Shown here: positions 8,754 to 54,231 of the stretch, one piece after another
Numbering within the stretch: position 1 is the first letter of the stretch
Layout: each line of letters opens with the position of its first letter
Notes under the pieces: generated by a model
Told to the model about the DNA's origin: nothing
What the model saw: the letters and a program-made list of their open reading frames with translations, nothing else
Database searches by the model: none
Origin: Oscillospiraceae bacterium
GTDB taxonomy: Bacteria; Bacillota; Clostridia; UBA1381; UBA9506
Direction of reading: 5' to 3'
Length of the DNA: 64,000 nucleotides
NCBI GenBank assembly: GCA_015068905.1
Contig: SVJQ01000001.1
Location: 169,104-233,103, forward strand
Position numbers and translations under genes: made by a program

Positions 8754-9551
8754 CTACAAAGCCTCTGTTTGGTGTCTGTTCCACTTTTTTGGAGAGGTGC
8801 CAACCTGGGCTGAGAAGACCTTTGAAAAGTGGTATACATCGCAGTATCCCAGACTAGCTGCAATTTCAGATACGGTGAAGCGTTCGCTTTCCAGCATTTC
8901 CTTTGCGGTAGAGATGCGGAGATTGTCCCTGAATTCTGTGATGGTCAACCCTGTGCTTTTTAAAAATTTTGCACGCAGGTGTGATGGGGAGACGGAGCAA
9001 TAGTCAGCAAGCTCTTTTCCTGAAAAATTGGTTTTAAAGTTCTGGTGGATGAAGGTAATGGCTTTGGCAATGTCCTGATCAGGAAAATGGTTAGACATCC
9101 TATTTTTGATAATGTCATAATAAACCGTTAAAAGCTTCACTCTGCAGCTTACATAAGAATCCCATTCGAGTGATTGCCAGATGGTGCAAACAGTTTTCAG
9201 TTTTTCAATTTCCTGCTCACTTGCGTGGTGGACAAAAGGCAATAAAGTATTATCGGTTTCTACAGTCAGCTCGCTGGTGATGTAAGAGCAGGGAGCAGGG
9301 CAACAAATTGTGTAGTTGTCTCCGCGGTTCACGAACAGAACATCTCCGGCTTTAATGTTATAGCGCTTGCCGCTGTTTGAAATGGCAAAACCGTTTCCTT
9401 CGGTCAGCAGAATAAAACCATCTGCAACTCTTTGTGGATTGTGGTAGCTGAAGTCGGTGCTTTCAGTTTTGAAGATAATGGTTTGAATGTCTGTAATATC
9501 AAGCTTTAGCTTCTTTCGCAAAACAATCACCTCTTGTGTAGTATTATACAT
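8754..9551 (-). CDS. AraC-family transcriptional regulator
   Basis: 'FSGKELADYCSVSPSHLRAKFLKSTGLTITEFRDNLRISTAKEMLESERFTVSEIAASLGYCDVYHFSKVFSAQVGTSPKKW'. Confidence 0.92.
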   Translation of the reverse strand: MYNTTQEVIVLRKKLKLDITDIQTIIFKTESTDFSYHNPQRVADGFILLTEGNGFAISNSGKRYNIKAGDVLFVNRGDNYTICCPAPCSYITSELTVETDNTLLPFVHHASEQEIEKLKTVCTIWQSLEWDSYVSCRVKLLTVYYDIIKNRMSNHFPDQDIAKAITFIHQNFKTNFSGKELADYCSVSPSHLRAKFLKSTGLTITEFRDNLRISTAKEMLESERFTVSEIAASLGYCDVYHFSKVFSAQVGTSPKKWNRHQTEAL

Positions 9552-9697
9552 TTAATTTTTTTAAAAATCAATGTTTTACAAGGAAAATTATTCTTGAAAT
9601 CATCTTTTTATACAAAAAGTGAGTTCTATTTTACATTGCTAGTTATGGTCATATTTTGTACAATATTAGTATAGAAAAATATGATGGAGAGAGAACT

Positions 9698-11730: not shown

Positions 11731-13080
11731 ATGTATTTTAAATTTCCTGAAAACTTTATGTTTGGCGCTGCCAGCTCTGCCTGTCAGATTGAATCTGCCT
11801 GCAAAGAGGGCGGCAAAGGCGAAGACGTGCATGAGCATTACTTTTCGATGTATCCTGAAAAGTATTTAAACGATGACCCTAATGAGGGCGCTGACTTTTA
11901 TCATAAATACCCTGAGGACATTAAGATGATGAAAGAACTGGGCATCAAATGTTTCCGTTTTTCCATTTCCTGGTCCCGTATTTATCCCAACGGCCCTGAT
12001 GAAGTTTGTCAGGCAGGTCTTGATTATTATGCTGACCTGATTGATAAGCTTATTGAAGCAGGCATTACCCCGTTCTTTGACCTGTGGCATTGCGACCTGC
12101 CGTATTGGGTGATTGAAAGAAACGCATTGTTAAACCCTGAATTTGTTGACTGGTTTGGGGCTTATGCTGAAACCTGCTTCCGCGCCTTTGGTGATAAGGT
12201 TGCTTATTGGAGCACCATTAACGAACCTAACGTTAACGTTATGGCGGCTTATGCATGGGGCAGCACCGCACCCTTTATGAAAGATATGAAGCTTGCTATG
12301 CAGGCAAATCACACGGCAGTTCTTGCTCATTACAGAGCAGTTAAAATCTTTAGAGAGCTTGGCTGTAAGGGCAAAATCGGTGTGGTGGTTCACATTCAGC
12401 TGACCTATGCACCCACTATGGATATGAAGGATCAGGAAGCGGCAGAACGTGATATGTCCTTCTATTCTACCTGGTGGACCGATTCTATGCTGAAAGGCTA
12501 TTATCCCAAAAACCTGATGGATTATCCCTACATTAAAAATCTGATGCCTGAGGGCTGGGAAAAAGACCTCAAGGAAAACTTTATTGAATCTGACTTTTTG
12601 GGTATTAACTACTACAGCTCATACATTGTTGGCTATGCCGAAGACGGTAAGATGGATTATGAAATTGTCACCGGTGACAAGCTGCCCAAGGATGACTATG
12701 GCTTTACCATCAATCCTCAGGGTATGTATGACACCATTATGGAAATGCAGAAGCGTCACCCGGGTCTTGAACTGATTATCACAGAAAACGGCATCGGCAG
12801 AAAGCGTACAGGCAATTATGAAGAAGAGCTTGATGACGACTACCGCATCAACTACCTGCGTGAGCATTTGCGTGCTGTTGCCCGTGCGGCAGAAGCAGGC
12901 GCACCGGTTACCGGTTATCTCCATTGGTCCATTATGGATACCACCGAGCTTTACGGCGGCGGCTATTCCATTTTGTTCGGTTTGACGCAGGTTCGTTTTG
13001 ATAAGCCTGACAAACAGCGTATTCCCAGAAAGAGCTGGTATTACTATCAAAAAATTATTGCTGAAAATGCAGTTAACTAA
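11731..13080 (+). CDS. Glycoside hydrolase family 1 (beta-glucosidase-type)
   Basis: 'FPENFMFGAASSACQIE', acid/base 'TINEPN', nucleophile 'IITENG' all intact. Confidence 0.95.
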   Translation: MYFKFPENFMFGAASSACQIESACKEGGKGEDVHEHYFSMYPEKYLNDDPNEGADFYHKYPEDIKMMKELGIKCFRFSISWSRIYPNGPDEVCQAGLDYYADLIDKLIEAGITPFFDLWHCDLPYWVIERNALLNPEFVDWFGAYAETCFRAFGDKVAYWSTINEPNVNVMAAYAWGSTAPFMKDMKLAMQANHTAVLAHYRAVKIFRELGCKGKIGVVVHIQLTYAPTMDMKDQEAAERDMSFYSTWWTDSMLKGYYPKNLMDYPYIKNLMPEGWEKDLKENFIESDFLGINYYSSYIVGYAEDGKMDYEIVTGDKLPKDDYGFTINPQGMYDTIMEMQKRHPGLELIITENGIGRKRTGNYEEELDDDYRINYLREHLRAVARAAEAGAPVTGYLHWSIMDTTELYGGGYSILFGLTQVRFDKPDKQRIPRKSWYYYQKIIAENAVN

Positions 13081-13115: not shown

Positions 13116-15197
13116 ATGTGTGAACAAGCAAATAAAGTTATGAAGCCCTTTCGGCCCATTGAAGCTTTAGAAGGGGATAATACAACCACCATTAAGGTTT
13201 GGGGCAGAGAATATAGCTTTGGCGAGTCTGCTATGCCGACCTCTGTCGTCACCCAGGGTGAAGAAATTTTGTCCGGCCCGATTCGCATTGTGCTGGAAGA
13301 AAACGGCGAAGAGGCAACATGGCTGCACAAATCTCATTATCTGATGTCTGCAGAGGCTGACAAGGCTGTTATCTGCGGTATTCAGAAAAGTGACGCCTTT
13401 GTGATTAACACAGCTATCACTGTTGAATATGACGGCTTGGTGGGCATTAACCTGAAAATTGTGCCCAAGGGCTCAACTGCCTCTGAAATTTTTGGCCACT
13501 CAAAGGGCAAAAAGGTTGGCTTTGATGTGGATAAGCTGTGGGTAGAAATTCCTTTAAAACGTGAGTATGCAACCATGTATCAGATGGCGACGGGCAGCAC
13601 CGTTAACTTTGAGGATGAAGATGCCCCCACCGATGCAGTTGTTCAGTCCTGTGGTGCATTGAAGCGGTCCATGTCTATGTCCTTTGCACCCTTAGTTACA
13701 GTAACTGAAAACGGTCCGAAGGGTTTTTCCTATTTCTGTGAATCCGGCAAGAACTGGGAGCCTGAAGATGAAAACAGAGCTATGGAAATTGTGGTAGGGG
13801 AGGACGAGGTTATTCTCCGTTTAAGACTGCTTGACGGCCATCCCTCAACCTGGGTGCAGAGAGGTAAAAGCCCGCTGGCAAACTCATACTTCCCCTTGAC
13901 GTATCACTTCGGTTTTCTGGCAACGCCCTTAAAACCGGTTGACAAAATGGCGCGCAAGAGAAGAATTTTGCACATTGCCGGTCACCACGAAGAAGGGGAA
14001 ATTGATCATTATGACACCTTCCTTGCCACACCTTCAGAAAAGTTTGGCGGCAAAAACGCCTATGACCGTATGAAGGAGGCAGGGGTTACCACCCTGATTT
14101 TGCACGAGGCGTGGAACACAACCCAGAACTTCTGGGAAGTGCCTGTTAAGAGAAAACGTGTGATCAAGAACATTATCAGAGAATGCCACGCAAGAGGCAT
14201 TGAGTTTGTTCCCTATTTTGGTTATGAAATTTCTACCATCGGTGCTTACTGGACTGATGAAAAGGTCAGCGAGATTGTTCGTGTACCCAAAGATGAAGAC
14301 GGATGGTTCGGTTGGTACCGTGAACCCTTCCAGCGTGACTACATTGTTTGCTATCAGTCAGACTGGAAGTACACCATGATTGAGGGCATCCGCAAGCTGG
14401 TTGACGAGCTTGATATTGACGGCGTTTATATGGACCTTGGTCTGACAGAGTGTGTGAACGAAAATCATGGCTGTGGCTATCGTGATAAGGACGGCAAGCT
14501 GCATCCCACCTTCCCGGTTTATGGCATCCGCGAGCTGTTTAAGGGTCTTTATTCCATCTTCCAGCCCAGAGGCGGCTTGATTGATTCTCATCAGGGTGCC
14601 CAGTGCAATTTCCCGTCACGTCCCTTCATTCACAGCACCTACACCGGTGAAGAAATTGTTTGGTTCATCCGCGATTCAGGGGCAGAGAACATTCCCCTTG
14701 ATTATTATAACTTTACGCTGTCCGGCAAACCCTCCGGTTCACCGGTTGATTTTGTTATCGTTGAATATCCTGACTGGACCTTTGAGATGACAGTTGCGGT
14801 GACCATCATTAACGGTGCCTTACCAAGACCCAGAATGTTCGCACATCTGGATATTATTGAGCCATATTGGAAGGCGATTGACAGCTTCCCCACGGAAAAG
14901 TCTGAGTGGTATACCTTTAAAGACAATACCCAGTGGGTGAAAACCTCGACTGATGATGTGAAAGTCAGCTTCCATGTGTATACTGACCTGCGGGGCAAAA
15001 AAACTCTGCTTGCCTTTATCACAAATCCCACCCGCAGAGTGCATGACGATGTAACTGTTACTTTTGCTGATAGTTTTATTGGTGATTATACTGCTTATGA
15101 TGCAATCGCAGGTGAAGAAATTGCAGTACAAGAGGGCAATCTGCATCTGTCCTTTAAAGAATTTGGCACCAAGGTTATTCACATCAGCGAGCTGTAA
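13116..15197 (+). CDS. Glycoside hydrolase-like protein (GH123/DUF6067-like), putative
   Basis: 'TLILHEAWNTTQNFWE', 'IIRECHARGIEFVPYFGYEIS', 'DIDGVYMDLGLTECVNENHGCGYRD', 'YTGEEIVWFI': TIM-barrel-like layout without signal peptide; exact family uncertain. Confidence 0.6.
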   Translation: MCEQANKVMKPFRPIEALEGDNTTTIKVWGREYSFGESAMPTSVVTQGEEILSGPIRIVLEENGEEATWLHKSHYLMSAEADKAVICGIQKSDAFVINTAITVEYDGLVGINLKIVPKGSTASEIFGHSKGKKVGFDVDKLWVEIPLKREYATMYQMATGSTVNFEDEDAPTDAVVQSCGALKRSMSMSFAPLVTVTENGPKGFSYFCESGKNWEPEDENRAMEIVVGEDEVILRLRLLDGHPSTWVQRGKSPLANSYFPLTYHFGFLATPLKPVDKMARKRRILHIAGHHEEGEIDHYDTFLATPSEKFGGKNAYDRMKEAGVTTLILHEAWNTTQNFWEVPVKRKRVIKNIIRECHARGIEFVPYFGYEISTIGAYWTDEKVSEIVRVPKDEDGWFGWYREPFQRDYIVCYQSDWKYTMIEGIRKLVDELDIDGVYMDLGLTECVNENHGCGYRDKDGKLHPTFPVYGIRELFKGLYSIFQPRGGLIDSHQGAQCNFPSRPFIHSTYTGEEIVWFIRDSGAENIPLDYYNFTLSGKPSGSPVDFVIVEYPDWTFEMTVAVTIINGALPRPRMFAHLDIIEPYWKAIDSFPTEKSEWYTFKDNTQWVKTSTDDVKVSFHVYTDLRGKKTLLAFITNPTRRVHDDVTVTFADSFIGDYTAYDAIAGEEIAVQEGNLHLSFKEFGTKVIHISEL

Positions 15198-15208
15198 GTT
15201 TTTTATAA

Positions 15209-15276
15209 AATCCTAAGATTAGACAAGGATTATCCTAGGATTTTACATATATTTATCTCGTGTAAAATGCTATAAT
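15209..15276 (+). promoter_or_regulatory. Paired palindrome operator (copy 1) plus -10 TATAAT
   Basis: AATCCTAAGATT (15209-15220) and TATCCTAGGATT (15231-15242), then TATAAT at 15271; no good -35 hexamer at 17 bp. Confidence 0.65.
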
Positions 15277-15342
15277 ATATTAAATAAGGTAATATAATTT
15301 AAAAATTTTGTATTAAAAAAGAGGGGAAAAGGAGGAGACTAT

Positions 15343-18300
15343 ATGTTCAAAAAACTAACAGCACTTTTACTTGTTATCTGTTTGAGCATTCCTATGCTTT
15401 GCATTGGCGCTTTTGCTGATGAGCAGGCAAAGCTTGTTGTGACGGACAATTTTAACAACGCAGCAGTTACTGTGCAGACATCTGCTTTTAACGGCGACAA
15501 TAACCGTTACACCAGTGATATTATGAACGTAACCCGAGATGCGGCAAACCGATTGCTTCACGGTACGACCGTTTCCATCACCGAAGAAGGTTACGAAGGC
15601 AGAGCAATGCTGATCTCTCCGGCGTATACGGAAGAATACGGCGAAGTCATCACCGAAAGAAACTTTATACCCGGTCAGGTGTTCATTTTAGACGAAAAGT
15701 TTAACGCGGCAGAGCTTTCGTATCAGTTCTGTGTTAAAAATCGCGGTGAGGGCGATGATGAGGCGGTTCGCCTGGAGGCAGCATACGCAACCGTTGACCA
15801 CTTTACCAACCACCCCGGTTTAACTTTTTATAAAGACAAAATCGTGATGGCAGGTAGTGAGACCGAATTTTTGTATGAAACTGATGTTTGGTATACGGCA
15901 AAATATGTTGTAGAAAACGGCGGTGCTAAGCTCTGCATTCTGTCTGATGCCGGTGAGGTTTTAGCGCAGAGTGCAGTTGCAGGTGAGTTCCCGAAGGTTA
16001 CCGTCGGCTTTTCAAACCCCAAGAGTGCGGTTAAGGGCTTTGCTCTGGCAGTTGACAATGCTGTTGTCAGCCGCTACCGTACCGGTAATCAGGAAACCAC
16101 ATTTTCTGATGTTTCTATTGTCCATTGGGCATACGACTATGTGGAAGAGTTACATACAAAAGGCATCATAAACGGCAGAGGTAATAAAGTTTTTGCCCCG
16201 TCTGATACAGTAACCCGTGAAGAGTTTGTAAAAATGGCAGTGGGCACGATTTCAGAAACCTTGTCACAGTCTGAGAGTGCTTACACAGATGTAGATATGT
16301 CTGCCTGGTATGCACCCTATGTTGTAACTGCTGAAGAGATTGGCTTAACCCCCGGCATCAGCGAAACTGAGTTTGGTGTTGGTCAGGTAATCAGCCGTGA
16401 AGATGTGATGGTTATCTTAGACCGCATCTTGGCAGAAGAGCAGATTGCTGTGGATGCATCAAGTGTTGGTGCTTTTGCTGACCAAAGCAAAATTTCAGCA
16501 GCTGCACTAAGCAGCGTTCAGCGCGTTGTTGCAGCAGGCCTCATTCAGGGTGATGATAAAAATAAGGTTAATCCCGAAGCCGGTTTAACCCGTGCTGAGG
16601 TTTGTGCGGTGATTAGTCGATTAGATGCTCTTGTAAATCCCGTGATTGTTGAAGGCGACAGATTAGACCAGACAAGACCTGCAGCCTTTAACCCTGAGAA
16701 CTTAGAGCGTAAGCTTTTGGGTATGCACGACTTTGAAAAAGGCAACGTTATGGCATCCCCTGACTTTTCTCTGACAAACTATAGCGGTGCTAAACTGGAT
16801 ACAAACGGCAACGCCTATGAGGGCAAAGCATCTTACAGAATGGCACCGGGCGAGGGCGGTACGAACAGTATCACATTTAGAGTCAGCGGTCTTGACTTAA
16901 AGCCCGGTGATGCAGTTTTAGGTATTGCTCATGTAAAATGTACCGGTTTGACGGACGCTGTTATGCGTAGTGGCGGTACCGCTCACAATAAAGGCGTTCG
17001 TGGTTCTATTTATTACCACAACTCCACAACCGGTGAAAGCACCGGTCACTATCAAACCTATGAAAGCATTGTGCGTGACCGTGACTGGGTAACCTCTATT
17101 CAGTATATTGACTTAACTCACGAGGCAGACAGCGTAACCTTTACGCAGTATTTAAGTGTGGTTGATCAGGGTACTGCCTGGTTTGACAATATTGCGATTT
17201 ATAAAATCGCTCACGACCCCTTCTTAGAAGCTTACTTAGAAACCCCGACCTATAAAGGTCTTATCTACGGTGAAGGCGGCGAGGGTGACATTAACCTGAC
17301 AACCTCCCTTTTAGACTATGGTGTTATTAACCTGTCTGACTGTGTGGTTAACGCAAAAATCGTGGATGAAAATGATAATGTTTTAATGCAGTCTCAGCTT
17401 ACAGATTTAGAAAATGAAGAAGAGCTCCGCATTACCTTCTCATCAAAAGATTTGAAGATGGATAACGACTACTATCTGCAGATGAGCTTAGACGATACAA
17501 CAAAAGATTATCAGTACAGCTTCCGTGAATGGATTTTGAGAAAGCGTCCTGAAGATTATCGTCCCAATAACTACTTTGATGAATACGGCAGATTTATCAT
17601 TGACGGCAAGCCCACCTTCTTTATGGGTATTTACGGTATGAACTATCTGTATACCACCATTGATGACTTAAAGGGCACACCCTTTAAGGTGCTTCTGCCT
17701 TATGGTTGGACCTGGTTCAACGCCAACAATGTTGACGGTGTAATCACCGCCGGTGCCGACCATGCACTCCTTGACTATGCTCACGAAAACGGTATTAAGA
17801 TGCTGACCGGTATGGGCTCCTTTACTTATGAATCTGCAACCACCTCCGGCTATCATACAAACATCTTTAAAGAACCTGAAGATGAAAGAAAGTTCTACGA
17901 TGCAATTTCTAAAGCAATGGACCATCCTGCACACTTGGGCTGGTACATTGCCGACGAGCAGAGCCCGGCGCGTTACGGTGCCATTAAGGAATGGGAAACC
18001 AAGGTCTTTTCAGATAATGACTTATCAGCCTGGACCTTTAACACCTTTACCTATGTAAACAACGCCCGTGCTGAAATCAGAATGGCAGATACATCAAACT
18101 GTAGCTCGTACCTCATTTTTAAGGGTGACGGCACAGATGATATTTCCGGTGTTACTGACCGTTTGGGCGGCATCTTTAACGCTGTTCCCAAGGGTAACAG
18201 ACCGTTGTATGCAACCCTGCAGGCTGGTCAGTTCTATTCCGGTCTCCGCGGTCCTGACGATATGGAATACAGAAACATGGCAATGCAGGCAATCTGCTTA

Positions 18301-19008
18301 GGTGCTCAGGGTCTTCTGTATTACAACTACTTTAACATGAAGGGTGAAGAAGGCAACGCACCCAGACCGTTCGAAGTAGAGTGGCCCATTTTAGTGAATG
18401 CGGTTGAAGAGATTGAAACCTTCTATCCCATGCTGTTATCAACTGATGCACCACCGAAGGTTAACTATGAAGCAGGCGACTGGTTCTGCCACATTGAAAA
18501 ACGTTATGATGGCAAATCCTATCTCTTTACCTGTAACAGAACCAGAAACACACAGACTGCTAAAATTCAGCTTGAGGGCGTGAAAACCATCCGCGGTCTG
18601 TATAGCGGCAAGACCTATGATGTAGACCAAAACGGCTGGTTTGAATATGAATACGGTCCCATTGGTGTAGAAGTGTTCGAAGTTGTTCAGAAGGATTATG
18701 CTTCTCCGGAATGCACCTTAAAATCCATCGGCTTTACAAACGGCAGCACAAGCTACATTGCTTCAAACCCCGGCGAGCAGTTCTCAAAAGTGTGGGATGT
18801 TACAGTTCCTGCCGGCGTAAACACTCTGCACTATGCAGCAAAAATTTCTGACAAAGCAACCTTGTATATTAACGACAAAGAGGTTTCTGCTACCGGTGAT
18901 ATTGACATTTCCGGCTTGAAAACCCTGAAGGTTAAAGTGGTTGCTGAGGATACACGATACGCAACTGATTATACTTATACAATTGTAAGGGGGGAGACCA
19001 ATGAATAA
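15343..19008 (+). CDS. Exported SLH protein: N-terminal lectin-like domain, SLH repeats, GH-like TIM-barrel region, C-terminal cadherin-like/Ig-type domain
   Basis: Signal peptide 'MFKKLTALLLVICLSIPMLCIGAFA'; SLH 'FSDVSIVHWAYDYVEELHTKGIINGRGNKVFAPSDTVTREEFVKMAV'; 'EYGRFIIDGKPTFFMGIYGMN...HPAHLGWYIADEQSPARYG'. Confidence 0.8.
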   Translation: MFKKLTALLLVICLSIPMLCIGAFADEQAKLVVTDNFNNAAVTVQTSAFNGDNNRYTSDIMNVTRDAANRLLHGTTVSITEEGYEGRAMLISPAYTEEYGEVITERNFIPGQVFILDEKFNAAELSYQFCVKNRGEGDDEAVRLEAAYATVDHFTNHPGLTFYKDKIVMAGSETEFLYETDVWYTAKYVVENGGAKLCILSDAGEVLAQSAVAGEFPKVTVGFSNPKSAVKGFALAVDNAVVSRYRTGNQETTFSDVSIVHWAYDYVEELHTKGIINGRGNKVFAPSDTVTREEFVKMAVGTISETLSQSESAYTDVDMSAWYAPYVVTAEEIGLTPGISETEFGVGQVISREDVMVILDRILAEEQIAVDASSVGAFADQSKISAAALSSVQRVVAAGLIQGDDKNKVNPEAGLTRAEVCAVISRLDALVNPVIVEGDRLDQTRPAAFNPENLERKLLGMHDFEKGNVMASPDFSLTNYSGAKLDTNGNAYEGKASYRMAPGEGGTNSITFRVSGLDLKPGDAVLGIAHVKCTGLTDAVMRSGGTAHNKGVRGSIYYHNSTTGESTGHYQTYESIVRDRDWVTSIQYIDLTHEADSVTFTQYLSVVDQGTAWFDNIAIYKIAHDPFLEAYLETPTYKGLIYGEGGEGDINLTTSLLDYGVINLSDCVVNAKIVDENDNVLMQSQLTDLENEEELRITFSSKDLKMDNDYYLQMSLDDTTKDYQYSFREWILRKRPEDYRPNNYFDEYGRFIIDGKPTFFMGIYGMNYLYTTIDDLKGTPFKVLLPYGWTWFNANNVDGVITAGADHALLDYAHENGIKMLTGMGSFTYESATTSGYHTNIFKEPEDERKFYDAISKAMDHPAHLGWYIADEQSPARYGAIKEWETKVFSDNDLSAWTFNTFTYVNNARAEIRMADTSNCSSYLIFKGDGTDDISGVTDRLGGIFNAVPKGNRPLYATLQAGQFYSGLRGPDDMEYRNMAMQAICLGAQGLLYYNYFNMKGEEGNAPRPFEVEWPILVNAVEEIETFYPMLLSTDAPPKVNYEAGDWFCHIEKRYDGKSYLFTCNRTRNTQTAKIQLEGVKTIRGLYSGKTYDVDQNGWFEYEYGPIGVEVFEVVQKDYASPECTLKSIGFTNGSTSYIASNPGEQFSKVWDVTVPAGVNTLHYAAKISDKATLYINDKEVSATGDIDISGLKTLKVKVVAEDTRYATDYTYTIVRGETNE

Positions 19009-20764
19009 AAGAATCATTGCACTTATAACAAGCTTATTAATTCTGTGCTCGATGCTGGTTATTCCTGCATCAGCAGATGGCCTCAGCCCCATCACCTATG
19101 ATGGTGAACGTATTGAGATTGAGGCAACGGTAGATGCGCCGGAAGGCTCTTATGTTACCGTTATCGTTGGTAAACCCGGCACAACTCTTGCGCAGGTGCA
19201 GGCGGCAACAGCCGCTCAGCTTCTGCCTTTGGTTGAGTATATCGGGGTTTTCCCGGTGAGTGCGACCACTCCCAATTTAAATGCAACCATTGAACTGCGT
19301 GAAAATCTTGCCACAGGTACCTGTGAGGTTTACATCGCAACTATGACCACCGCTTTTTCAAAGCTGGGTGAGTTTGAAAACTTAAGCCGCCTTGAAATTG
19401 CAGGCATGGTTACAGCTTTCAACGAAACAGCAGTTGAAAGCTATGGTACTTTGTTTACTGACAATAACAAAATGTATCTGCGTGCATTTAACGCAGATGT
19501 AACAAGCTATGAAGCACTTGATACACAAGTGACTAACTTCTATTCCTTCTTAGTCGGCAAACGCCCCTTTGCGGCAGCTGCAGCAGGTGAAACTGATGTA
19601 GGCGTGCTGGTTAAGGCATTTAACGAAGGCATTGCTTTTGCAAGCCTCTCAGAAGCAACAGCAGAAGAGATTACCGAAGTTTCTTCCTTATTAAATAGTT
19701 ATAACACAAAATATTGGAATCTGGCACTTGGGGAGGATACACCCTATGGCAACCTGAGCCAGACCCAAAAGGACAGAATCTGTGCAGCAATCGGTAATGG
19801 AACCTATTATGATGCGGCAAGCCTAGAGAGCGACTTTAATACCCAGCTTGCTATCTCAGTCTTCTTAGAATGTGCGACAGAAATGGATCTGCTGTCTGCA
19901 ATGACAACCTATGGCAGCGTTTATCAGCTAGATGCAACCCTGATGCAGGACAGCCGTATTGACGAGTATTACACAACCATGATTCATAACGAAATGATTG
20001 CAAACAAGCATCTTGTTTCTGATGTATCCACCCTGCAGAGTGTCTACGCGCAGGCGATCAGCACCGTTTTAGCCGGTATTCCTGTAGTCGATGACGACGA
20101 TGACGACAGATACTACGGCAGCACCGGCGGAGGCGGTGGCGGTGGAGGTGGCATCATCATTAAAGATGATAAGAAGCCTTCGACCGATTTAGTGCCTGTT
20201 CCTGAAAAGAGCTTCTTTAGGGATGTAGCAGAGACACACTGGGCGTATGAAAATATTCAGAAACTGTATGACAAGAAAATTGTTTCCGGCAAAGGTGACG
20301 GTCAGTTTGCACCAAGCGATAACGTGACTCGCGAAGAATACGCTAAAATGATGGTTTTAGCCTTAGATAGCAGCATCACAGACAGCACGGTGTCATACAG
20401 CGATGTTAAGGCAGGCAGCTGGTATCAGCCCTATATTGCAACAGCTGTTCGTGACGGTTTAATCAATGGCTTAGGCGACGGAACCGTGGGCATTGGCAAG
20501 GCACTCAGCCGTGAAGATGCCGCTGTGATGATTGAACGTGCATTGACTCGTGAAGGTATTACCTTAAAGGATGCAGGTACTGCATTTGGCGATAACGACC
20601 AAATTGCAGATTATGCAAAATCAGCGGTCGGCAAGCTGGTGCAGACCGGTATTTTAACCGGCTATGGAGATAACACTTTTATGCCGAAGCAGACAATCAG
20701 CCGTGCTGAGGTTTGCACCGTGATTGTCAGAATGATTAATTTATTGGAAGGAGAGGGTAAATAA
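19001..20764 (+). CDS. Exported SLH protein with Asp/Gly-rich linker (cassette 1, gene A)
   Basis: Signal peptide; 'VVDDDDDDRYYGSTGGGGGGGGG' linker; C-terminal SLH repeats 'FFRDVAETHWAYENIQKLYDKKIVSGKGDGQFAPSDNVTREEYAKMMV'. Start overlaps the preceding stop by 8 bp. Confidence 0.85.
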   Translation: MNKRIIALITSLLILCSMLVIPASADGLSPITYDGERIEIEATVDAPEGSYVTVIVGKPGTTLAQVQAATAAQLLPLVEYIGVFPVSATTPNLNATIELRENLATGTCEVYIATMTTAFSKLGEFENLSRLEIAGMVTAFNETAVESYGTLFTDNNKMYLRAFNADVTSYEALDTQVTNFYSFLVGKRPFAAAAAGETDVGVLVKAFNEGIAFASLSEATAEEITEVSSLLNSYNTKYWNLALGEDTPYGNLSQTQKDRICAAIGNGTYYDAASLESDFNTQLAISVFLECATEMDLLSAMTTYGSVYQLDATLMQDSRIDEYYTTMIHNEMIANKHLVSDVSTLQSVYAQAISTVLAGIPVVDDDDDDRYYGSTGGGGGGGGGIIIKDDKKPSTDLVPVPEKSFFRDVAETHWAYENIQKLYDKKIVSGKGDGQFAPSDNVTREEYAKMMVLALDSSITDSTVSYSDVKAGSWYQPYIATAVRDGLINGLGDGTVGIGKALSREDAAVMIERALTREGITLKDAGTAFGDNDQIADYAKSAVGKLVQTGILTGYGDNTFMPKQTISRAEVCTVIVRMINLLEGEGK

Positions 20765-23448
20765 TGTTAAAGCGTTTCGTATGTTTATTGCTTGCTGTTT
20801 CCTTATGTGCCATCCCCTTCGTTGTGCCTCATGCGGCTGAAGAGCTTGAAGTTCTTCCACAGAACATTGCTTTTCTGCAGGATTTGGGTATTTTAGAAGA
20901 AATCCCTGAAGTCGGCTTGTATGAGCGCAGAGTGTATTACACAAGAGAAAAGCTGGCAAAAACCCTTTCTATGATGCTTTTATCCAGTGAGCCTGTTATT
21001 ATTCAGGAACCGGAAATCAGAGACGTGGCAGGCAACGAATATATTAATTATATTGATTTTGTTGTTACCCAGGACCTGATGAAGCTGGATACAAAGCTAA
21101 TGTTCCATCCTAAAGACTATGTCACCCTTGATATGGCAGTCTATGGCATGGTGAACGCTTTGGAATATCATCCGCTGGCAGAGGAGTTAGGTGGCACAGC
21201 AGAGGCTTATTTATCTGTTGCGGTCGACATTGGCCTTCTGCGTAAGGTTGATATCAAAGACCCTGAACGTATTACGATTTTTGAACTGGGCGAAATGGTA
21301 GATAACGCAATGCGCATCACCCCTATGGTGCAAAAGGATGAAATTATCACCTGCATCAAGCCCACTCTTTTAGAGCAGAAAGAGCTGTTTAGAAAAAGCG
21401 GCCGTATTCTGGCGAATACAAATGTGGGCCTGTCAATTGACAAAGCACCCAGAGGGTATGTGAATATTGACGGCAAGCTCTATCCTACCAAGCTTGTGAT
21501 AGAAGACATTACCGTTGGTGCGATTGTTACCTATTACACACAAAAAATTGACAACAAAGAGCATGTTATCAGCTACTATGCAACCAGTGACGAAGGTGTT
21601 TTGTCCTTAGATGCAGACGAGATTGAGGGCATTTCCTTTACAGATTCAAGCGTCAAGCTGACCTACGACGAGGAAGAAGAGGCTGTGATTGACAGACGTG
21701 CATTTGTGCTGGTTAACGGCAAAAATTACAGCTTGACTCCTGAACTCTTTGACGTGTTTACAAGCGGTACTATCAATATGCGTGACAGTGATGACAACGG
21801 CACCTTTGATGTGGTTTATATGGACCTGTACCGGACAGAGGTTATCGGTGCAGTAGGTGCCGGTGCCAAGAACATCATCACAAAATATTACAACCAGTCT
21901 ATTAAGCTGGAGCCTGTTGGCGACGGTCTTCGCATTATTAAAGAAAACAAAGAGATTGATGTAAGCGAACTTGCAATCGGTCAGGTTATCAGCGTTAGCT
22001 GTGATGCCTTTACCATTAACGCAGGACAGCTGACATTTGACTATAACAATGCGACAAAGCTGACCATTCGTGTTTCTGACAAAACTGTTACCGGCGTGGT
22101 TACCCAGACAGTTGACGGCAGTAACTACATTGTGGTAGACGACATTAAATATGAAGCAAGTAGCTACCTTAAAAAGGCATATGACGATGGCAAGGTTTTT
22201 GCAGTTCAGCCCGGTCAGCCTGTTGTGCTTTACTTAGACATTTATGACAAGGTTATCACCCATGAGGTTAACTCTAAAGAAAACCTGATGGAATATGGCT
22301 ATCTGATTGACGCTGCCGTTAACACCCAGGGTCTTAACCAAAACCTGATGTTAAAACTTTTATGTGAAGACGGTAAAATCAGAATTTTTGATGCGGCTAA
22401 AACCTATCTGTTAAACGGCGTGACTGTGAAAAAGCACAGCTTAACAGGTAGCTACGGTGAAAATCTTGACACTCGTCAGCTCATTCGCTACCGCGTGCAA
22501 AATGAAATGGTGAAAGAGATTGATACCGTGCAGGTTAACCCCTTGGTTGAAAGCTCCAAAAACTCTTTAAGCCGTGACTATACCTCAGGCGCTACCAGCT
22601 TAAGCTACCGTTTCGGTAACTTCGGTTGGAAGGTTGTTATGTTGGCAACCACACCGGCATTTAACGTGCCCGACCCGTCAGCAACTGAGGTGGATGATTC
22701 ACAGTTTGTCCGTGTATCAACCGCCACAACGGTGCAGGATAAATCTTATAAAATTGATGCTTATGATATGGACGACCGCTTGGTTGCCGGCTGTATTTTA
22801 AGATATTCAGCAACAGCCGTTGCAAACTATGGCGATAAAGATGTGGTATATATGATTTCAGACGTATGCCGCGCCGTTGGCCCTGACGGATTGCCCACCA
22901 CACAGCTCACCCTGCTTGACAGTACTGAGGGTGGCGAAACCATCGTTTATTTTGCAGACGATGTTGACTGCCGCTTAAATCACGGCAAGCAGTATGGCAA
23001 TGCATCTGCAGAGCAGACCGGCAACGAGCTGACCGCAGCAGACTTTAAACGCGGTGACCTGATTCGTTACCTGCCGGATGATAATGGTATGGTTGCTAAC
23101 ATTGAGCGTGTATTCCGCTACAGCGCAAGTGAGCCTACAAAGCCTGTTGCTTACGGTTCAGGCGGTGCTTACGGCGTATCCTATTCAGCCTTTGCATACA
23201 ACGTTAACTTAGACTACTTAACTGTTTGTATGAACAAAAATGTGGCAAGTGCAACGCCTGAAGAGTTCTGCGCTATTCCCACATCCCGTTTCAAAACCGT
23301 ACCGGTTTATAATGTAAATGAGGATGAGGTATATCTGGAAAAAGACGTGTTTAACACACCGTCTTACTCAGGCGCATCCAACACAATGCTCTGGCTGCAG
23401 ACCTATACATCAGAAATCATGGGCGCTTTTGCCTATTGCTTGGATTGA
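20764..23448 (+). CDS. Exported ~890 aa protein, degenerate SLH-like N-terminus, unknown beta-rich body (cassette 1, gene B)
   Basis: Signal peptide; start is coupled to the upstream stop (taaATG); same layout as 54232..56883. Confidence 0.7.
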   Translation: MLKRFVCLLLAVSLCAIPFVVPHAAEELEVLPQNIAFLQDLGILEEIPEVGLYERRVYYTREKLAKTLSMMLLSSEPVIIQEPEIRDVAGNEYINYIDFVVTQDLMKLDTKLMFHPKDYVTLDMAVYGMVNALEYHPLAEELGGTAEAYLSVAVDIGLLRKVDIKDPERITIFELGEMVDNAMRITPMVQKDEIITCIKPTLLEQKELFRKSGRILANTNVGLSIDKAPRGYVNIDGKLYPTKLVIEDITVGAIVTYYTQKIDNKEHVISYYATSDEGVLSLDADEIEGISFTDSSVKLTYDEEEEAVIDRRAFVLVNGKNYSLTPELFDVFTSGTINMRDSDDNGTFDVVYMDLYRTEVIGAVGAGAKNIITKYYNQSIKLEPVGDGLRIIKENKEIDVSELAIGQVISVSCDAFTINAGQLTFDYNNATKLTIRVSDKTVTGVVTQTVDGSNYIVVDDIKYEASSYLKKAYDDGKVFAVQPGQPVVLYLDIYDKVITHEVNSKENLMEYGYLIDAAVNTQGLNQNLMLKLLCEDGKIRIFDAAKTYLLNGVTVKKHSLTGSYGENLDTRQLIRYRVQNEMVKEIDTVQVNPLVESSKNSLSRDYTSGATSLSYRFGNFGWKVVMLATTPAFNVPDPSATEVDDSQFVRVSTATTVQDKSYKIDAYDMDDRLVAGCILRYSATAVANYGDKDVVYMISDVCRAVGPDGLPTTQLTLLDSTEGGETIVYFADDVDCRLNHGKQYGNASAEQTGNELTAADFKRGDLIRYLPDDNGMVANIERVFRYSASEPTKPVAYGSGGAYGVSYSAFAYNVNLDYLTVCMNKNVASATPEEFCAIPTSRFKTVPVYNVNEDEVYLEKDVFNTPSYSGASNTMLWLQTYTSEIMGAFAYCLD

Positions 23449-30918: not shown

Positions 30919-32217
30919 ATGAAGAACATGCAAGAAGTAAAAACTGCAAAAGTTGGTGTGGGACGAGGTATTATCTCTCCGGTAAAAATGGCTCAGCTTT
31001 GGGGTTATCCTGTGATTCGTGACACTGAGGTGATTCACGATGACCTGCAGGCGACCGCCTTTGCTTTTGAATATGATGGCAAGCAGTCGCTGCTTGTTAA
31101 CCTGACCATTATTTTTCTGCTCAATGATGAATTTGAGATTTTAAGAGAGCTTGTAAGCCGCGAAACCGGCGTGCCCTATGAAAACATTATCATTGACTGT
31201 ACCCATACCCATTCAAGCCCTGCGACAGATTCTGATATTAAAGATAATGAGTATATCCAGACAGTGCTTCGCCCCGGTGCGGTGAAGGCTGCAAAAGAGG
31301 CGCTGGGCAACCTGCAGGAGGCATATATGGGCGTTGCCACGGTTGAAAGCCACGTTGGCATTAACCGCCGCGAGGTCACCTTGCGTGGTGGCATTGGCTT
31401 AGGCCAAAACCCCTGGGGCACCTTTGACCCCACCATGACGGTGATCAGCTTTGTGACACCGGATAAAAAGCCCATTGGTAACCTTGTGCATTACGGCACC
31501 CATTGTACTGCGGCAGGGAACAACTATGAGGTAACCCGTGACTGGTCAAGTGTTATGATTGACCGTTTAGAAGCTCAGACCGGCGCAATGACAGCGTTTA
31601 TCAACGGCCCCATTGGCGACACCGGCCCGAACCTTTCTGACGGCAGCACGGCGGCAAATTTAGAGCTTGCTTTAGAGCTTGGTGGTGAAGCGGCATCCGA
31701 TGCGGTGCGCGCTTACCGTTCCATTAAAGATTATCGTCCCATTGATATGAAGGTGACCATGCAGGAAGTAAAGCTGCCTTACAAGCCCCAGATGTCTTAT
31801 GAGGATGCGGTGGCAGAATATGCAACCCATACAGAAGAAGAGAAGAATGACTATTATGGCAGATGCTATCACCTGCGTAAGGTTATGGCAGAATATGAGG
31901 CAGGTCACCCTGTTGAGACAGAGCTGACCATCAATGAAACTGTGATTTCGGTAGGACCGGTTGCCTTTGTGCCGTTCCCCTTTGAAATGTTTACAGAAAT
32001 GACCTTGCGTCTCAGAAAGTTCAGCCCCTATCAGCACACCTTGTCCCTTTCTATCGGCAACGGCTATTACAGCTATCTGCCTTCGCAGGATCAGATTTGC
32101 CGTGGTGGCTATGAGGTGGCAATGTTCCGTGACTTTAACCCCTATCAGCTGGTGGATAATACTGACACAATTCTGGTGCAGCAGCTGGTGGATGTTTTAA
32201 AGAACTTAGCAGAATAA
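30919..32217 (+). CDS. Neutral/alkaline non-lysosomal ceramidase N-terminal domain-like protein, cytoplasmic
   Basis: 'GRGIISPVKMAQLWGY', 'IIIDCTHTHSSPAT', 'FINGPIGDTGPN', no signal peptide. Confidence 0.75.
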   Translation: MKNMQEVKTAKVGVGRGIISPVKMAQLWGYPVIRDTEVIHDDLQATAFAFEYDGKQSLLVNLTIIFLLNDEFEILRELVSRETGVPYENIIIDCTHTHSSPATDSDIKDNEYIQTVLRPGAVKAAKEALGNLQEAYMGVATVESHVGINRREVTLRGGIGLGQNPWGTFDPTMTVISFVTPDKKPIGNLVHYGTHCTAAGNNYEVTRDWSSVMIDRLEAQTGAMTAFINGPIGDTGPNLSDGSTAANLELALELGGEAASDAVRAYRSIKDYRPIDMKVTMQEVKLPYKPQMSYEDAVAEYATHTEEEKNDYYGRCYHLRKVMAEYEAGHPVETELTINETVISVGPVAFVPFPFEMFTEMTLRLRKFSPYQHTLSLSIGNGYYSYLPSQDQICRGGYEVAMFRDFNPYQLVDNTDTILVQQLVDVLKNLAE

Positions 32218-47464: not shown

Positions 47465-47503
47465 AACGCAATTTTTTCAGCTTTCTAAAACGACATTTTG
47501 AAA

Positions 47504-47570
47504 AATCCTAGGATTAGACAAAATAATCCTAGGATTTTCCCTATTTTCTTTTGTGAAAATTATATATAAT
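47504..47570 (+). promoter_or_regulatory. Paired palindrome operator (copy 2) plus -10 TATAAT
   Basis: AATCCTAGGATT (47504-47515) and AATCCTAGGATT (47525-47536), then TATAAT at 47565. Confidence 0.7.
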
Positions 47571-47602: not shown

Positions 47603-48571
47603 GTGGATGTTACATTGAAAGCAAATGTAGAAAAAGCAGGGGCAATCACCCCGAGACGCAGGCTGGGCAAAGAAATGTGGCAGTCAAGGTATTTATACCT
47701 GTTGTTGCTTCCCAGTGTTTTTTTGATTGGCCTGTTTTGTTATGGTCCGCTATATGGCTTGCTCCTTGCGTTTAAGGAGTATAAACCGAGGCTGGGCATT
47801 TTGGGAAGCCCATGGGTTGGCTTTGATGTTTTTGAAAGTGTAGTCACTGACCCACATTTCTGGCACGTGTTCTTTAATACGATTAAAATCAGCTTCTTGT
47901 TTATTGTTTTCACCTTCCCGGTGCCGATTTTGATTGCCTTGTTCTTTAATGAACTGCGTAGCAGCAAATTACAAAAGACACTGCAAACGGTTTATACTTT
48001 TCCTCACTTTCTGTCCTGGGTTATTCTGTCCGGTATTTTTATCAACTTTTTAGATTTTAACGGTCCGGTTAACGCAGTGATTAATTTTCTGGGACTGGAA
48101 CGGGTTACGTTTTTAGGCGAAAAATCGATGTTTATCCCGATTCTGCTTATCACGGATATATGGAAAAGTGCCGGATGGAGCAGTATCGTATATCTTGCCG
48201 CCATTGCCGGTATTGATGCTGAGCTTTATGAGGCGGCAGAACTTGACGGCGCAAGCCGCTGGCAGAAAATGTTTTACATTACCGTACCCAGCATCAGCAC
48301 AACCATCAGCATGCTTTTGGTATTGAGAATCGGCAGCCTGATCAGCGGTCATTTTGATCAGGTATTTAATATGCAGAATCCGGCTGTTTCTGAGGTTGCT
48401 GAAACCCTTGAAGTGTATATTTACAACTATACCTTCCTGCAAGGCGGAAGCTTTTCATTCACAACGGCGATTGGCTTGTTTACCTCAGTGATTAACTTTA
48501 TCTTACTCACTGTTGCCAATGTCTTTTCTAAAAAAGTGCAGGGCGTTGGCGTTCTGGAAGGGGGTAAATAA
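47603..48571 (+). CDS. Sugar ABC transporter permease (LplB-like)
   Basis: 'RYLYLLLLPSVFLIGLFCYGPLYGLLLAFKEYKP', 'ELYEAAELDGASRWQKMFYITVPSI'. Confidence 0.92.
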   Translation: MDVTLKANVEKAGAITPRRRLGKEMWQSRYLYLLLLPSVFLIGLFCYGPLYGLLLAFKEYKPRLGILGSPWVGFDVFESVVTDPHFWHVFFNTIKISFLFIVFTFPVPILIALFFNELRSSKLQKTLQTVYTFPHFLSWVILSGIFINFLDFNGPVNAVINFLGLERVTFLGEKSMFIPILLITDIWKSAGWSSIVYLAAIAGIDAELYEAAELDGASRWQKMFYITVPSISTTISMLLVLRIGSLISGHFDQVFNMQNPAVSEVAETLEVYIYNYTFLQGGSFSFTTAIGLFTSVINFILLTVANVFSKKVQGVGVLEGGK

Positions 48572-48573
48572 AG

Positions 48574-49446
48574 ATGAAAAAACGAATCACAATTGCCGAT
48601 GTCATTATCGCGGCTGTTATGATTGCCTGGGGCTTTACTATTTTCTACCCCTTCTACAATACGGTTCTCACCTCTTTTATGACAGAGGCAGAGTATATGA
48701 AGCATCCTTTCTCTTTTTATGTCAGAGACATTACCTTTGATGCTTACAAAACAATCTTTACGAACAGTAAAATTCCCAGAGGTTTTACAAACTCTCTGAT
48801 TATTGTCGGTGCTTATACGCCCCTCAGCCTGTTTCTGACTGCGACGGCGGGATATGCCATGAGCCGTAAACGGTTTCCTTTAAGAAACCTGATTAACAAC
48901 TTTTTTGTTCTGCCTATGTATTTCGGCGGCGGTATCATTCCTCTTTACATTCTGGTTAAAAATCTGGGCATGTTAAACAGCTTGTGGCCTATTATTTTAA
49001 TTGGTGCTATGAGTACATATAATATGATTTTGGTGAAGAATTATTTTTACGGCATATCGGATTCTTTGGAAGAATCTGCCCGCATTGACGGTGCTAACGA
49101 CATCAGAATCTGTTTCCAGATTTATCTGCCGTTGGCAAAGCCGATTCTTGCAACCATTTTGCTGTTTTGCGTGGTAGGTAAGTGGAACGAATGGTATTTC
49201 CCTCTGTTGTTTATCACAGACACCAAGCAGTGGCCCCTGCAGTTGGTTCTGCGTGAGACAATTAATGAAGTAGCCAACAAAATCAATGCCGGTTCCTTAT
49301 CGGATGATCAGCTTGGTATTGAAACCTTCTCTCAAAGCGTTAAAATGGCGACGGTTGTTGTCACTATGGTTCCCATTATGTGCGTATATCCCTTTATGCA
49401 ACGGTATTTTATCAAAGGTATTATGATTGGCGCCGTAAAGGGCTGA
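48574..49446 (+). CDS. Carbohydrate ABC transporter permease (YtcP-like)
   Basis: 'AGYAMSRKRFPLRNLINNFFVLPMYFGGGIIPLYILVKNLGMLNSLWPII', 'SLEESARIDGANDIRICFQIYLPLAKPILATI', 'QRYFIKGIMIGAVKG'. Confidence 0.93.
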   Translation: MKKRITIADVIIAAVMIAWGFTIFYPFYNTVLTSFMTEAEYMKHPFSFYVRDITFDAYKTIFTNSKIPRGFTNSLIIVGAYTPLSLFLTATAGYAMSRKRFPLRNLINNFFVLPMYFGGGIIPLYILVKNLGMLNSLWPIILIGAMSTYNMILVKNYFYGISDSLEESARIDGANDIRICFQIYLPLAKPILATILLFCVVGKWNEWYFPLLFITDTKQWPLQLVLRETINEVANKINAGSLSDDQLGIETFSQSVKMATVVVTMVPIMCVYPFMQRYFIKGIMIGAVKG

Positions 49447-49484: not shown

Positions 49485-51074
49485 ATGAAAGCAAAAAAAG
49501 TTCTGGCGTTTTTGCTGGCTGCTGTCATGGTTATCGGTTTACTTGCCGGCTGCGGTGGCAGTCAAAAGGATGAAAAGACTGAAGATGGTAAGTTTATTTA
49601 TCGTATTTCCATGGTTAATCCCAAGGAAGACCTGACAAGTGACCCTGTGTATCAGTTTATTTCTGACAAGTTTGGGGTTGTGTTTGAGCCTGTCGGCGTT
49701 TCCTATGAAAACTGGTCAGAAAAGAACAACATTTGGCTGTCATCCGGTGATATGCCTGATATTATGAAATGGTCGTTTAACTACAAAGATTATATGAATT
49801 TTGCAGACCAGGGCATTGTAAGAGCACTGCCGGATGATCTGGAAACCAAATATCCTAACGTTGCGGCTGTTATGAAAAACAACAAGACTTGGGATAAATT
49901 AAAAGAATCTAACGATGGTAAGATTTATACCTTTATCCCCAGCTATGGTTTTGGTACCAACGTGTATGAAGAAGGCTTTGATGTAAACGTTGATATGTAT
50001 GGCTTTGTTTACAGAAAAGACTGGGCAGAACAGCTGGGTATTGAATTTTCTACCGTTATGCCTTATGAAGATTTAATGGCAGCTGCCAAAAAGTTTAAAG
50101 AGGCAGATTTAGGCGGCGTAGGTAAAGATAATGTTGTTGGCATGGCTGTACACTACACAGAAGCCCCCAATGTTTTTGTAACCGCTTATAACAGCTGCTA
50201 TAATATGTTCCGTAAGAATGCAGACGGTGAGTATGTTTACGGTATGACACAGCCGGTAACCAAGCAGGGCGTTATGGAATATGCAAAAGCTTATAAAGAA
50301 GGTATTCTGCATCCTAACTTCTTTGCCCACAAGCTGGATAATGTCAAGAGCCTGTTTGTAACCGGTAAAGCCGGTATCTACTATGAAAACTGGACTGGCA
50401 CCAACGCTTTTAAAAACTTTAAGAAGCTGTTTGAAGAATCCAATCCCGGACTTGACGCAGATAAAGTTTTAGGTATGTGTTGGTTCACATCACCTGACGG
50501 CAAGATTCATGGTCGTGAAAATACAGACTTCTGGGAATGCTCTTATTACAACCCCGATATGAGCGACGAGAAGTTTGATAAGCTGCTCAGCGTTATGGAT
50601 TATATAGCAGGTCATGACGGCGCCATGCTGAAAAACTACGGTCTTGAAGGCGTTGATTATAAGGTTGAAGGCGACACTGTTACCCGTTTGATTCCGCCCA
50701 CTAATGAAGAGGGTGGCTATAAGATGGTTGATAAGTATCCTTCTATCGGCATCTTCAATTCTTTGATCAGCAGCAGTTTCTCTGATAAAAAGTTTATTCC
50801 CAGAGATGGTCTTGATATGGAAAGTATGAAGACGTTAAACGAGCTGGGTCTTGCAAAGTTGGGCGGCGACAGAGCCCTGAGCGATGTTGATCTGGACGTA
50901 CAGTTCTATAGCTCTGACACACTTTCTAAATTCAACGCCAATGTTAAAACACATGAAATTCTGTTAGATGTTGTTATGGCTGAAAATCCGGAAGCTGAAT
51001 GGGAAAAACAGCTTGCAGCATTTAAGGACGATGCAGCAGCCCTTGAAAAAGAGCTGAATGATGCTTTAAAATAA
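49485..51074 (+). CDS. Extracellular solute-binding lipoprotein (LplA-like)
   Basis: Lipobox 'VMVIGLLAGCGGS'; 'NNIWLSSGDMPDIM', large family-1 type SBP layout; directly after the two permeases. Confidence 0.9.
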   Translation: MKAKKVLAFLLAAVMVIGLLAGCGGSQKDEKTEDGKFIYRISMVNPKEDLTSDPVYQFISDKFGVVFEPVGVSYENWSEKNNIWLSSGDMPDIMKWSFNYKDYMNFADQGIVRALPDDLETKYPNVAAVMKNNKTWDKLKESNDGKIYTFIPSYGFGTNVYEEGFDVNVDMYGFVYRKDWAEQLGIEFSTVMPYEDLMAAAKKFKEADLGGVGKDNVVGMAVHYTEAPNVFVTAYNSCYNMFRKNADGEYVYGMTQPVTKQGVMEYAKAYKEGILHPNFFAHKLDNVKSLFVTGKAGIYYENWTGTNAFKNFKKLFEESNPGLDADKVLGMCWFTSPDGKIHGRENTDFWECSYYNPDMSDEKFDKLLSVMDYIAGHDGAMLKNYGLEGVDYKVEGDTVTRLIPPTNEEGGYKMVDKYPSIGIFNSLISSSFSDKKFIPRDGLDMESMKTLNELGLAKLGGDRALSDVDLDVQFYSSDTLSKFNANVKTHEILLDVVMAENPEAEWEKQLAAFKDDAAALEKELNDALK

Positions 51075-52587: not shown

Positions 52588-54228
52588 ATGAGAAAAAGAA
52601 TGCAGATGCTGGCACTATTTTTAGTCATTGCTATTTTTAGTTCTCTTACGGTCAGTGTAGCAGCAAGTGGTGCTACTTTGACATACGCAGGAGGCAATAC
52701 CGTCTTTAGACTGACGGGCAGCAGTGAGATAGCGCGAGCAGGACAAAATGTTACCCTGAAGGTGACGGTTCCCAACGGAACACCGGAGATGACGGATGAC
52801 GAAATCATTTACATCCGCCAAACCTATACAGAGGCAGATGGTAGCTATACATTTGCTTTTGAATTGGAAACTAGTGGGGATGCTCAGGCTACTATTTCTG
52901 TTGAAGACGTCAGAGAAGATCCGATTGATTTATATAAATCAACGGATGCAGAGATGAGTCAGGCGCTTGCAGCAGCTGACAGCGGCATTTACAGTGCTGT
53001 TCAGAATGCTACCCACGCAAAGGTGCTGATGGTGAATCCAGCTGCGTTTTCAGCGGATGGTCTTTTGACTCGTGTAATTGATTCTGCTGCTGACGGGTAT
53101 TATCAGGCAGGTGGCTTATCTGCATTTACAGATGCCTATCGAACTGCTTTATTTATGGTAGCAGTTAAAAATGCCGGCAGTGCACAGGATGTTTTAGATG
53201 CATTAGCAGCGTATGCTGATGTGATTACTCTGTCGGGCAAACATGCAGGCACAACTTTTGCAGATTATTCTGATGCAGATAAGACAGCCGTTTTAGATGT
53301 TGTGAAGGGAAAAGAATATACAAGCGAGGCTATGTTTGTAGATGCTGTTTTTGAAGCGGTTGTTATGAAAGAGCTGGCAGCTGCCTACAGTGACAATGAA
53401 AAATATGGTGTCATTTCAGATAATAACGATTTTCTGGCTTTTGACCTGGCGAAATATGAATCTTTGGGTTCTTATTTTACAAGCTTTCAGGAACAGGTAT
53501 TTGACGGTCTGTTTACCGATAAGGCAACCTTGCTTGGGGTTTGCGAAAGCGTGTATAACACCATACTCTCCAATATGACGACGGATGATGACCGTGGCGG
53601 GTCCGGCGGTGGAGGTGGTGGCGGTTTTGCTATCAAGATTCCGGAAGATACAGAAACGCCTGATGATGACCCAACGACAGACAAGGTATATTTTACAGAT
53701 TTAGGTGCACATACATGGGCACATGAAAGCATTCAGTATCTTGCAGCTGCAGGCGTTGTATCAGGAAAGGGTAACAATTTGTTCTGTCCTGATGATACGG
53801 TTACTCGTGGTGAATTTATTAAAATGCTGGTTGGCACGCTCGGTTTGGTTGATAGCAGTACATCCTCTGACTTTACAGATGTTCCGAGCACACATTGGGC
53901 ATATCAGTATGTGTCAAGCGCTGTTAAAGCGGGTATCACAGATGGTATTGGCGATTCTCTGTTTGATGTTAATGCTCAGATCACCCGTCAGGATATGGCA
54001 GTTATGTGCCACAGAGCACTTGAGTACATTCGGACAGATTTATCAAGTGTAGAGAGCGTGCAATTTGCAGATGAGTCAAGTGTTTCAGCTTATGCTAAGA
54101 ATGCAGTCGGTGTTTTAGCAGGTTTAGGCATTATTAATGGTAAAGGCAATAATCAATTTGATCCACAGTCACATGCTACAAGAGCAGAGGCTGCAAAAGT
54201 AGTGTATTTGCTGCGAGGGAGGGGATAA
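52588..54228 (+). CDS. Exported SLH protein with Asp/Gly-rich linker (cassette 2, gene A)
   Basis: Signal peptide; 'TTDDDRGGSGGGGGGGFAIK' linker; C-terminal SLH 'YFTDLGAHTWAHESIQYLAAAGVVSGKGNNLFCPDDTVTRGEFIKMLV'. AGGAGG RBS. Confidence 0.85.
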   Translation: MRKRMQMLALFLVIAIFSSLTVSVAASGATLTYAGGNTVFRLTGSSEIARAGQNVTLKVTVPNGTPEMTDDEIIYIRQTYTEADGSYTFAFELETSGDAQATISVEDVREDPIDLYKSTDAEMSQALAAADSGIYSAVQNATHAKVLMVNPAAFSADGLLTRVIDSAADGYYQAGGLSAFTDAYRTALFMVAVKNAGSAQDVLDALAAYADVITLSGKHAGTTFADYSDADKTAVLDVVKGKEYTSEAMFVDAVFEAVVMKELAAAYSDNEKYGVISDNNDFLAFDLAKYESLGSYFTSFQEQVFDGLFTDKATLLGVCESVYNTILSNMTTDDDRGGSGGGGGGGFAIKIPEDTETPDDDPTTDKVYFTDLGAHTWAHESIQYLAAAGVVSGKGNNLFCPDDTVTRGEFIKMLVGTLGLVDSSTSSDFTDVPSTHWAYQYVSSAVKAGITDGIGDSLFDVNAQITRQDMAVMCHRALEYIRTDLSSVESVQFADESSVSAYAKNAVGVLAGLGIINGKGNNQFDPQSHATRAEAAKVVYLLRGRG

Positions 54229-54231
54229 GTA

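Follow-up and report, generated by a model that had tools for sequence, protein, structure and literature searches.

Results

Promoter elements of the SLH and transporter operons

The window analysed here is a stretch of 64,000 nucleotides from the genome of an Oscillospiraceae bacterium (G000). At 15343..19008 its forward strand encodes a secreted protein with SLH domains (Pfam SLH, 1.1e-30) and a cadherin-like domain, the first gene of an operon, with orthologues in the genomes G016 (86% identity) and G018 (52% identity). A second operon on the same strand opens with a permease of a CUT1/LplB-like oligosaccharide ABC transporter (47603..48571; BPD_transp_1, 4.2e-16), 76% identical to its G018 orthologue. 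It continues with a second ABC permease (48574..49446; BPD_transp_1, 1.8e-13) and a putative lipoprotein solute-binding protein (49485..51074), designated so from its lipoprotein-type N-terminus and its placement after two permeases; this last product has no match in Pfam or NCBIfam.

Each operon is preceded by two repeat units and a -10 hexamer, all on the forward strand. In front of the SLH operon, the upstream unit (box 1, AATCCTAAGATTAGACAA) occupies 15209..15226 and the promoter-proximal one (box 2, TATCCTAGGATTTTACAT) 15231..15248, 22 bp from box 1, while TATAAT stands at 15271..15276, 38 bp from the TC of box 2. For the ABC-transporter operon, box 1 (AATCCTAGGATTAGACAA) lies at 47504..47521, box 2 (AATCCTAGGATTTTCCCT) follows at 47525..47542, 21 bp from box 1, and TATAAT, at 47565..47570, keeps the distance of 38 bp to the TC of that box. 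Neither promoter has a -35, the best hexamer matching at most three of six positions. The sequence thus contains what the initial annotation had described: near-identical elements at 15209 and 47504, each with a TATAAT and without a good -35. Its distance of 34.5 bp from the second palindrome centre to TATAAT is correct at both copies; its 22-bp spacing of the palindrome centres fits the first copy but not the second, where it is 21 bp.

A genome-wide motif search, proposed earlier as a check, bears out the pairing: at one mismatch or fewer, ATCCTARGATTAGACAA has two matches in the 1.73-Mb genome, both in the window, and its reversed-pattern control has none. With up to three mismatches there are nine matches in the genome against five for the control, so that only the two close ones go beyond chance. 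The window has no excess of the palindrome alone (ATCCTAGGAT, at most two mismatches; 9 observed versus 21.5 expected), and the double-palindrome pattern gave nothing beyond the known site in the whole genome. Since the bare palindrome is not enriched, the signal is carried by the long composite element.

A direct repeat conserved at seven promoters

Altogether, seven sites were found, three in G000 and four in its congener G018. Those of G000 precede the SLH operon, the transporter operon and, on contig C26, the yesN-yesM genes; those of G018 precede the SLH gene, the transporter permease, a GH123-like gene and a GH1 gene, the orthologous SLH and permease genes being preceded by sites in both genomes. 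When the sites are aligned, the unit is asymmetric, aTCYTAGRATTAGACAwA, and is repeated directly with a period of 20-22 bp in all seven. The start of box 2 lies 38 bp from the -10 in six sites and 39 bp in the seventh. TTAGACA of box 1 is kept in 6/7 sites (the GH1 site has TTTGACA), and the TC and the A at position 6 of the unit are also constant. Box 2 of the permease sites lacks GACA, with TTCCCT instead, and at the GH123-like site TTAGACAT is present in each unit, oriented alike. What had been called a paired palindrome is therefore better described as an asymmetric direct repeat, four of the seven sites being without near-perfect palindromes.

Two direct-repeat half-sites about two helical turns apart, found at every site, the proximal one lying next to or over the -35 position and at a set distance from the -10, correspond to an AraC/XylS-type class II arrangement. 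The layout is that of E. coli pBAD, where the direct half-sites araI1 and araI2, of ~17 bp each, lie ~21 bp apart with the proximal one at the -35; however, E. coli AraC is a one-component arabinose sensor, and both the type of regulator and the box sequences differ from ours. In the yesN and GH123-like promoters, TAGACA stands directly after box 2, 17 bp before the -10. The window promoters at 15209 and 47504 have no such -35 after box 2, which suggests a stronger dependence on an activator there.

We built a sequence-only model, R1, from six of the sites, including that at 15209, whose whole element scores 55.8 bits against it. R1 finds the untrained seventh site (E 3.1e-11) before the 52%-identical G018 orthologue of the SLH gene, and G018 also carries the element before its orthologue of the 47603 permease. 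The phylogenetic check suggested beforehand thus finds the element upstream of both orthologues in this relative, and the proposal of a shared, promoter-positioned, probably activator-dependent operator of two glycan units is supported. In G016, a further congener, a decayed copy (E 6.2e-7, with TATCAT as the -10) lies upstream of the SLH orthologue. When 95 genomes of the order are scanned with R1, sites at E<=0.001 are found in G000 and G018 only, together with this decayed copy, matches at E>0.02 in congeners being counted as chance; strong sites are thus carried by two species. In the window, no element was seen by eye or by R1 upstream of the operons at 11731, 13116, 27507, 34116 and 52588.

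Gene content of the putative regulon

Downstream of the GH1 gene of G018 come genes for an APH-type kinase and a ROK-like protein, and then nagA (TIGR00221). From the neighbouring GH123-like, APH-type kinase and nagA genes, the cue of the regulon may perhaps be a glycan containing N-acetylhexosamine.

Some other features of the window were observed alongside. Two gene pairs, at 19001-23448 and 52588-56883, resemble duplicated units, each with an SLH protein (587 and 546 aa) and then a secreted protein (894 and 883 aa); the latter pair has an ordinary-looking promoter without the element. The gene at 30919-32217, in the SLH cluster near an APH-type kinase gene, has a weak neutral-ceramidase N-terminal match (1.5e-10). 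At 9600-9664, the promoter of a DUF5107/GH1/GH123-like operon contains TATACAAAAAGTG and TTTTACATTG, 21 bp apart from ACA to ACA, with 26 bp from the second ACA to TACAAT. Weak as it is (8/17 matches), this could be another site of AraC or YesN type, possibly serving the divergently oriented AraC gene at 8754-9551.

A YesN-like regulator co-occurs with the element

One of the G000 sites lies before the gene of a YesN-like response regulator (17825-19291 of C26, a contig other than that of the window). The protein has a Response_reg domain (5.8e-13), with the receiver residues D8, D9, D55 and K105 intact, and an AraC-type double HTH (HTH_18, 6.6e-21); the adjacent gene encodes a kinase with His_kinase (3e-14) and HATPase_c (4.4e-10) domains, the composition of a YesM/YesN two-component system. 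The pair is orthologous, with 76% identity, to one in G018, where an element lies between it and the permease (between 10113 and 10222 of L012).

Regulators of more than 34% identity occur in G000 and G018 only among the 95 genomes of the order, the same two that carry strong sites. A search of 85,462 species genomes, possibly excluding the window's own, yielded no full-length orthologue above 34% beyond G018. G016 has no regulator orthologue that we could find, an absence that is not certain since this genome is only 80% complete, and no permease at E<=1e-50.

The genome sequences, then, establish that the elements exist with this geometry, that they are conserved and that they co-occur with the regulator. 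Neighbourhood, co-occurrence and the sites of paralogues (below) point to binding of this regulator to the element. We consider it probable that the element is an activator operator bound by the YesN-like regulator of C26, and not by the AraC proteins of the window.

Repeats at paralogous and distant YesN-type loci

G014 and G017, whose regulators are 34% identical to that of G000, and G007 have 21-bp repeats before permeases, at the same distance to the -10. Their downstream box (TTATACAT, TTTTACAT) is conserved and resembles TTAGACAT, and the second HTH of the regulators is nearly identical; the upstream box differs, and so does the first HTH. This pairing of boxes and domains fits the known orientation of AraC-type proteins, in which the upstream box is contacted by HTH1 and the downstream one by HTH2. 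At the paralogous YesMN locus (L046:10500-10600 and L046:13520-13610 in G017; L047 in G014), two promoters, serving a large gene of 952 codons and a permease, have a near-identical 21-bp repeat element, GTAATTTTACAAAAATGAAGCAGAATTATACATTT.

We further surveyed 76 loci around YesN-type homologues of Paenibacillus, Cohnella, Ruminiclostridium, Halanaerobium, Sporanaerobium, Lachnospiraceae and others, counting intergenic direct repeats that match at 12/17 positions or more and have the start of the proximal unit 35-41 bp upstream of a -10-like hexamer. Period 21 was found at 21 promoters and period 22 at 25, against a mean of 4.9 for the other 21 periods. Counted by locus, 30 of the 76 have period 21 or 22 at 37-40 bp, and at most 10 have any pair of periods without 21 or 22. 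Many of the repeats stand 30-65 bp before genes for LplB- or MalF-like permeases. The counts include some matches that are not promoters, as well as closely related species that are not independent, and are therefore support rather than proof.

Tentatively, YesN-type regulators across Bacillota could share a promoter grammar: a direct repeat of 21-22 bp, with its proximal unit starting ~38 bp upstream of the -10, and two boxes, the downstream one a conserved ACA box and the upstream one specific to each system. Two of the Lachnospiraceae/Ruminococcus loci (L100:13184-13264 and L112:13134-13214) have double CAATAAATATTTATTG palindromes, 21 bp apart, between divergent -10-like hexamers, which looks like a different, truly palindromic operator.

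Alternative readings of the element

The arms of the element can be read in two other ways. As annotated initially, they would be true paired palindromes bound by a dimeric regulator of two-fold symmetry, and the CCTAGG palindromes of both permease promoters are indeed perfect, those at 15209 being nearly perfect. However, the arms match at only 2-4 of 5 positions at the yesN, GH123-like, GH1 and G018 SLH sites while the asymmetric TTAGACA persists, and the like orientation of TTAGACAT in both units of the GH123-like site also speaks against such symmetry; we regard this reading as very unlikely. Least probable of all is an RNA hairpin, acting as terminator or attenuator of the upstream gene. 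At 47502-47538 the arms do form a 15-bp stem, flagged by a terminator scan, with a fold of -19.4 kcal/mol, but the yesN, GH123-like and G018 SLH sites have folding energies close to zero (0 to -2.1 kcal/mol), the gene that ends at 47428 is followed directly by a GC-rich inverted repeat and T run of its own, and a -10 at a fixed 38 bp from the start of box 2 is at odds with a hairpin. A stable stem with a T run, as of an intrinsic terminator, is not found at every copy, given the folding at those three sites, and none was flagged at 15209. Rfam has no family match in 15100-15400.

A different question is which protein binds the same operator. AraC proteins typically bind tandem half-sites, and five are encoded in the window, one of which the initial annotation had suggested as the binder; another candidate is the one-component AraC-cupin protein encoded divergently from yesN on C26 (L042:9571-10479). 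Its gene has an 86% identical orthologue in G018 and none above 52% in any other genome, so that co-occurrence alone leaves it a candidate. On the other hand, in G018 it is the regulator-kinase pair, immediately upstream of the element, that adjoins it, and not the AraC-cupin gene; the second HTH of the AraC-cupin protein differs from that common to the YesN paralogues sharing the downstream box; and its 52%-identical homologues in G006-G008 are not accompanied by sites. Given the different second HTH and the position of the G018 gene away from the site, we hold the AraC-cupin protein, or one of the five in the window, to be an unlikely binder. The YesN-like regulator, with a site upstream of its own gene and its co-occurrence with the site in the 95 genomes, is a better candidate than the local AraC proteins.

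Discussion

We propose a class-II-type operator made of two asymmetric half-sites of ~17 bp in direct repeat, 20-22 bp apart, the promoter-proximal one ending where a -35 hexamer would be and starting 38 bp from the -10. The kinase would sense a glycan cue and phosphorylate the YesN-like regulator, two protomers of which would occupy the tandem units and bring RNA polymerase to promoters without a -35. The predicted outcome is that the SLH (surface) operon, the genes of the oligosaccharide transporter and those of regulator and kinase are induced together.

Comparable systems are known. In Caldicellulosiruptor bescii, sugar-uptake operons under AraC-family two-component regulators have tandem-repeat sites ahead of their promoter elements, and the authors read these sites as those of activators (PMC8579813). 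The tandem repeats before sugar-uptake promoters are as here; organism and regulators are different, however, and that text speaks of 'tandem repeats with large spacers', with no fixed 38-bp rule (PMC8579813). Ruminiclostridium cellulolyticum likewise has AraC-type response regulators tied to glycan-use genes, in its CuaR/CuaS and XydR/XydS systems (PMC5663094, PMC3572039). CuaR activates the promoter of a cellodextrin ABC transporter (PMC5663094). For XydR, no consensus DNA site was identifiable, and it was not found bound upstream of its own genes (PMC3572039), in contrast to the site before yesN here. In pneumococcus, TCS07 controls glycan transport and hydrolase genes; no motif was found in 2020 (PMC7075642), and a 2024 study proposed CTWWWWWWAG as a candidate for RR07, with no clear repeat for YesN (PMC11034029). 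TCS07 and YesNM are of the YesMN type, like the G000 system, with motifs missing or unclear. As the initial annotation had stated, no characterised operator with this sequence was found in the literature searched; we therefore take it as a new operator sequence of a general kind already known.

Judged from sequence, the element would join the two gene clusters, which lie 32 kb from each other, and a regulator encoded on a different contig in a single glycan-responsive regulon of an uncultured genus of gut Clostridia. It also provides a concrete predicted operator within a regulator class for which such sites have been hard to find. If the shared grammar is true, operators would be predictable for YesMN systems without a known motif, and the fixed layout, if it holds widely, could allow the promoters of many sugar-uptake systems to be matched with their sensors by sequence alone.
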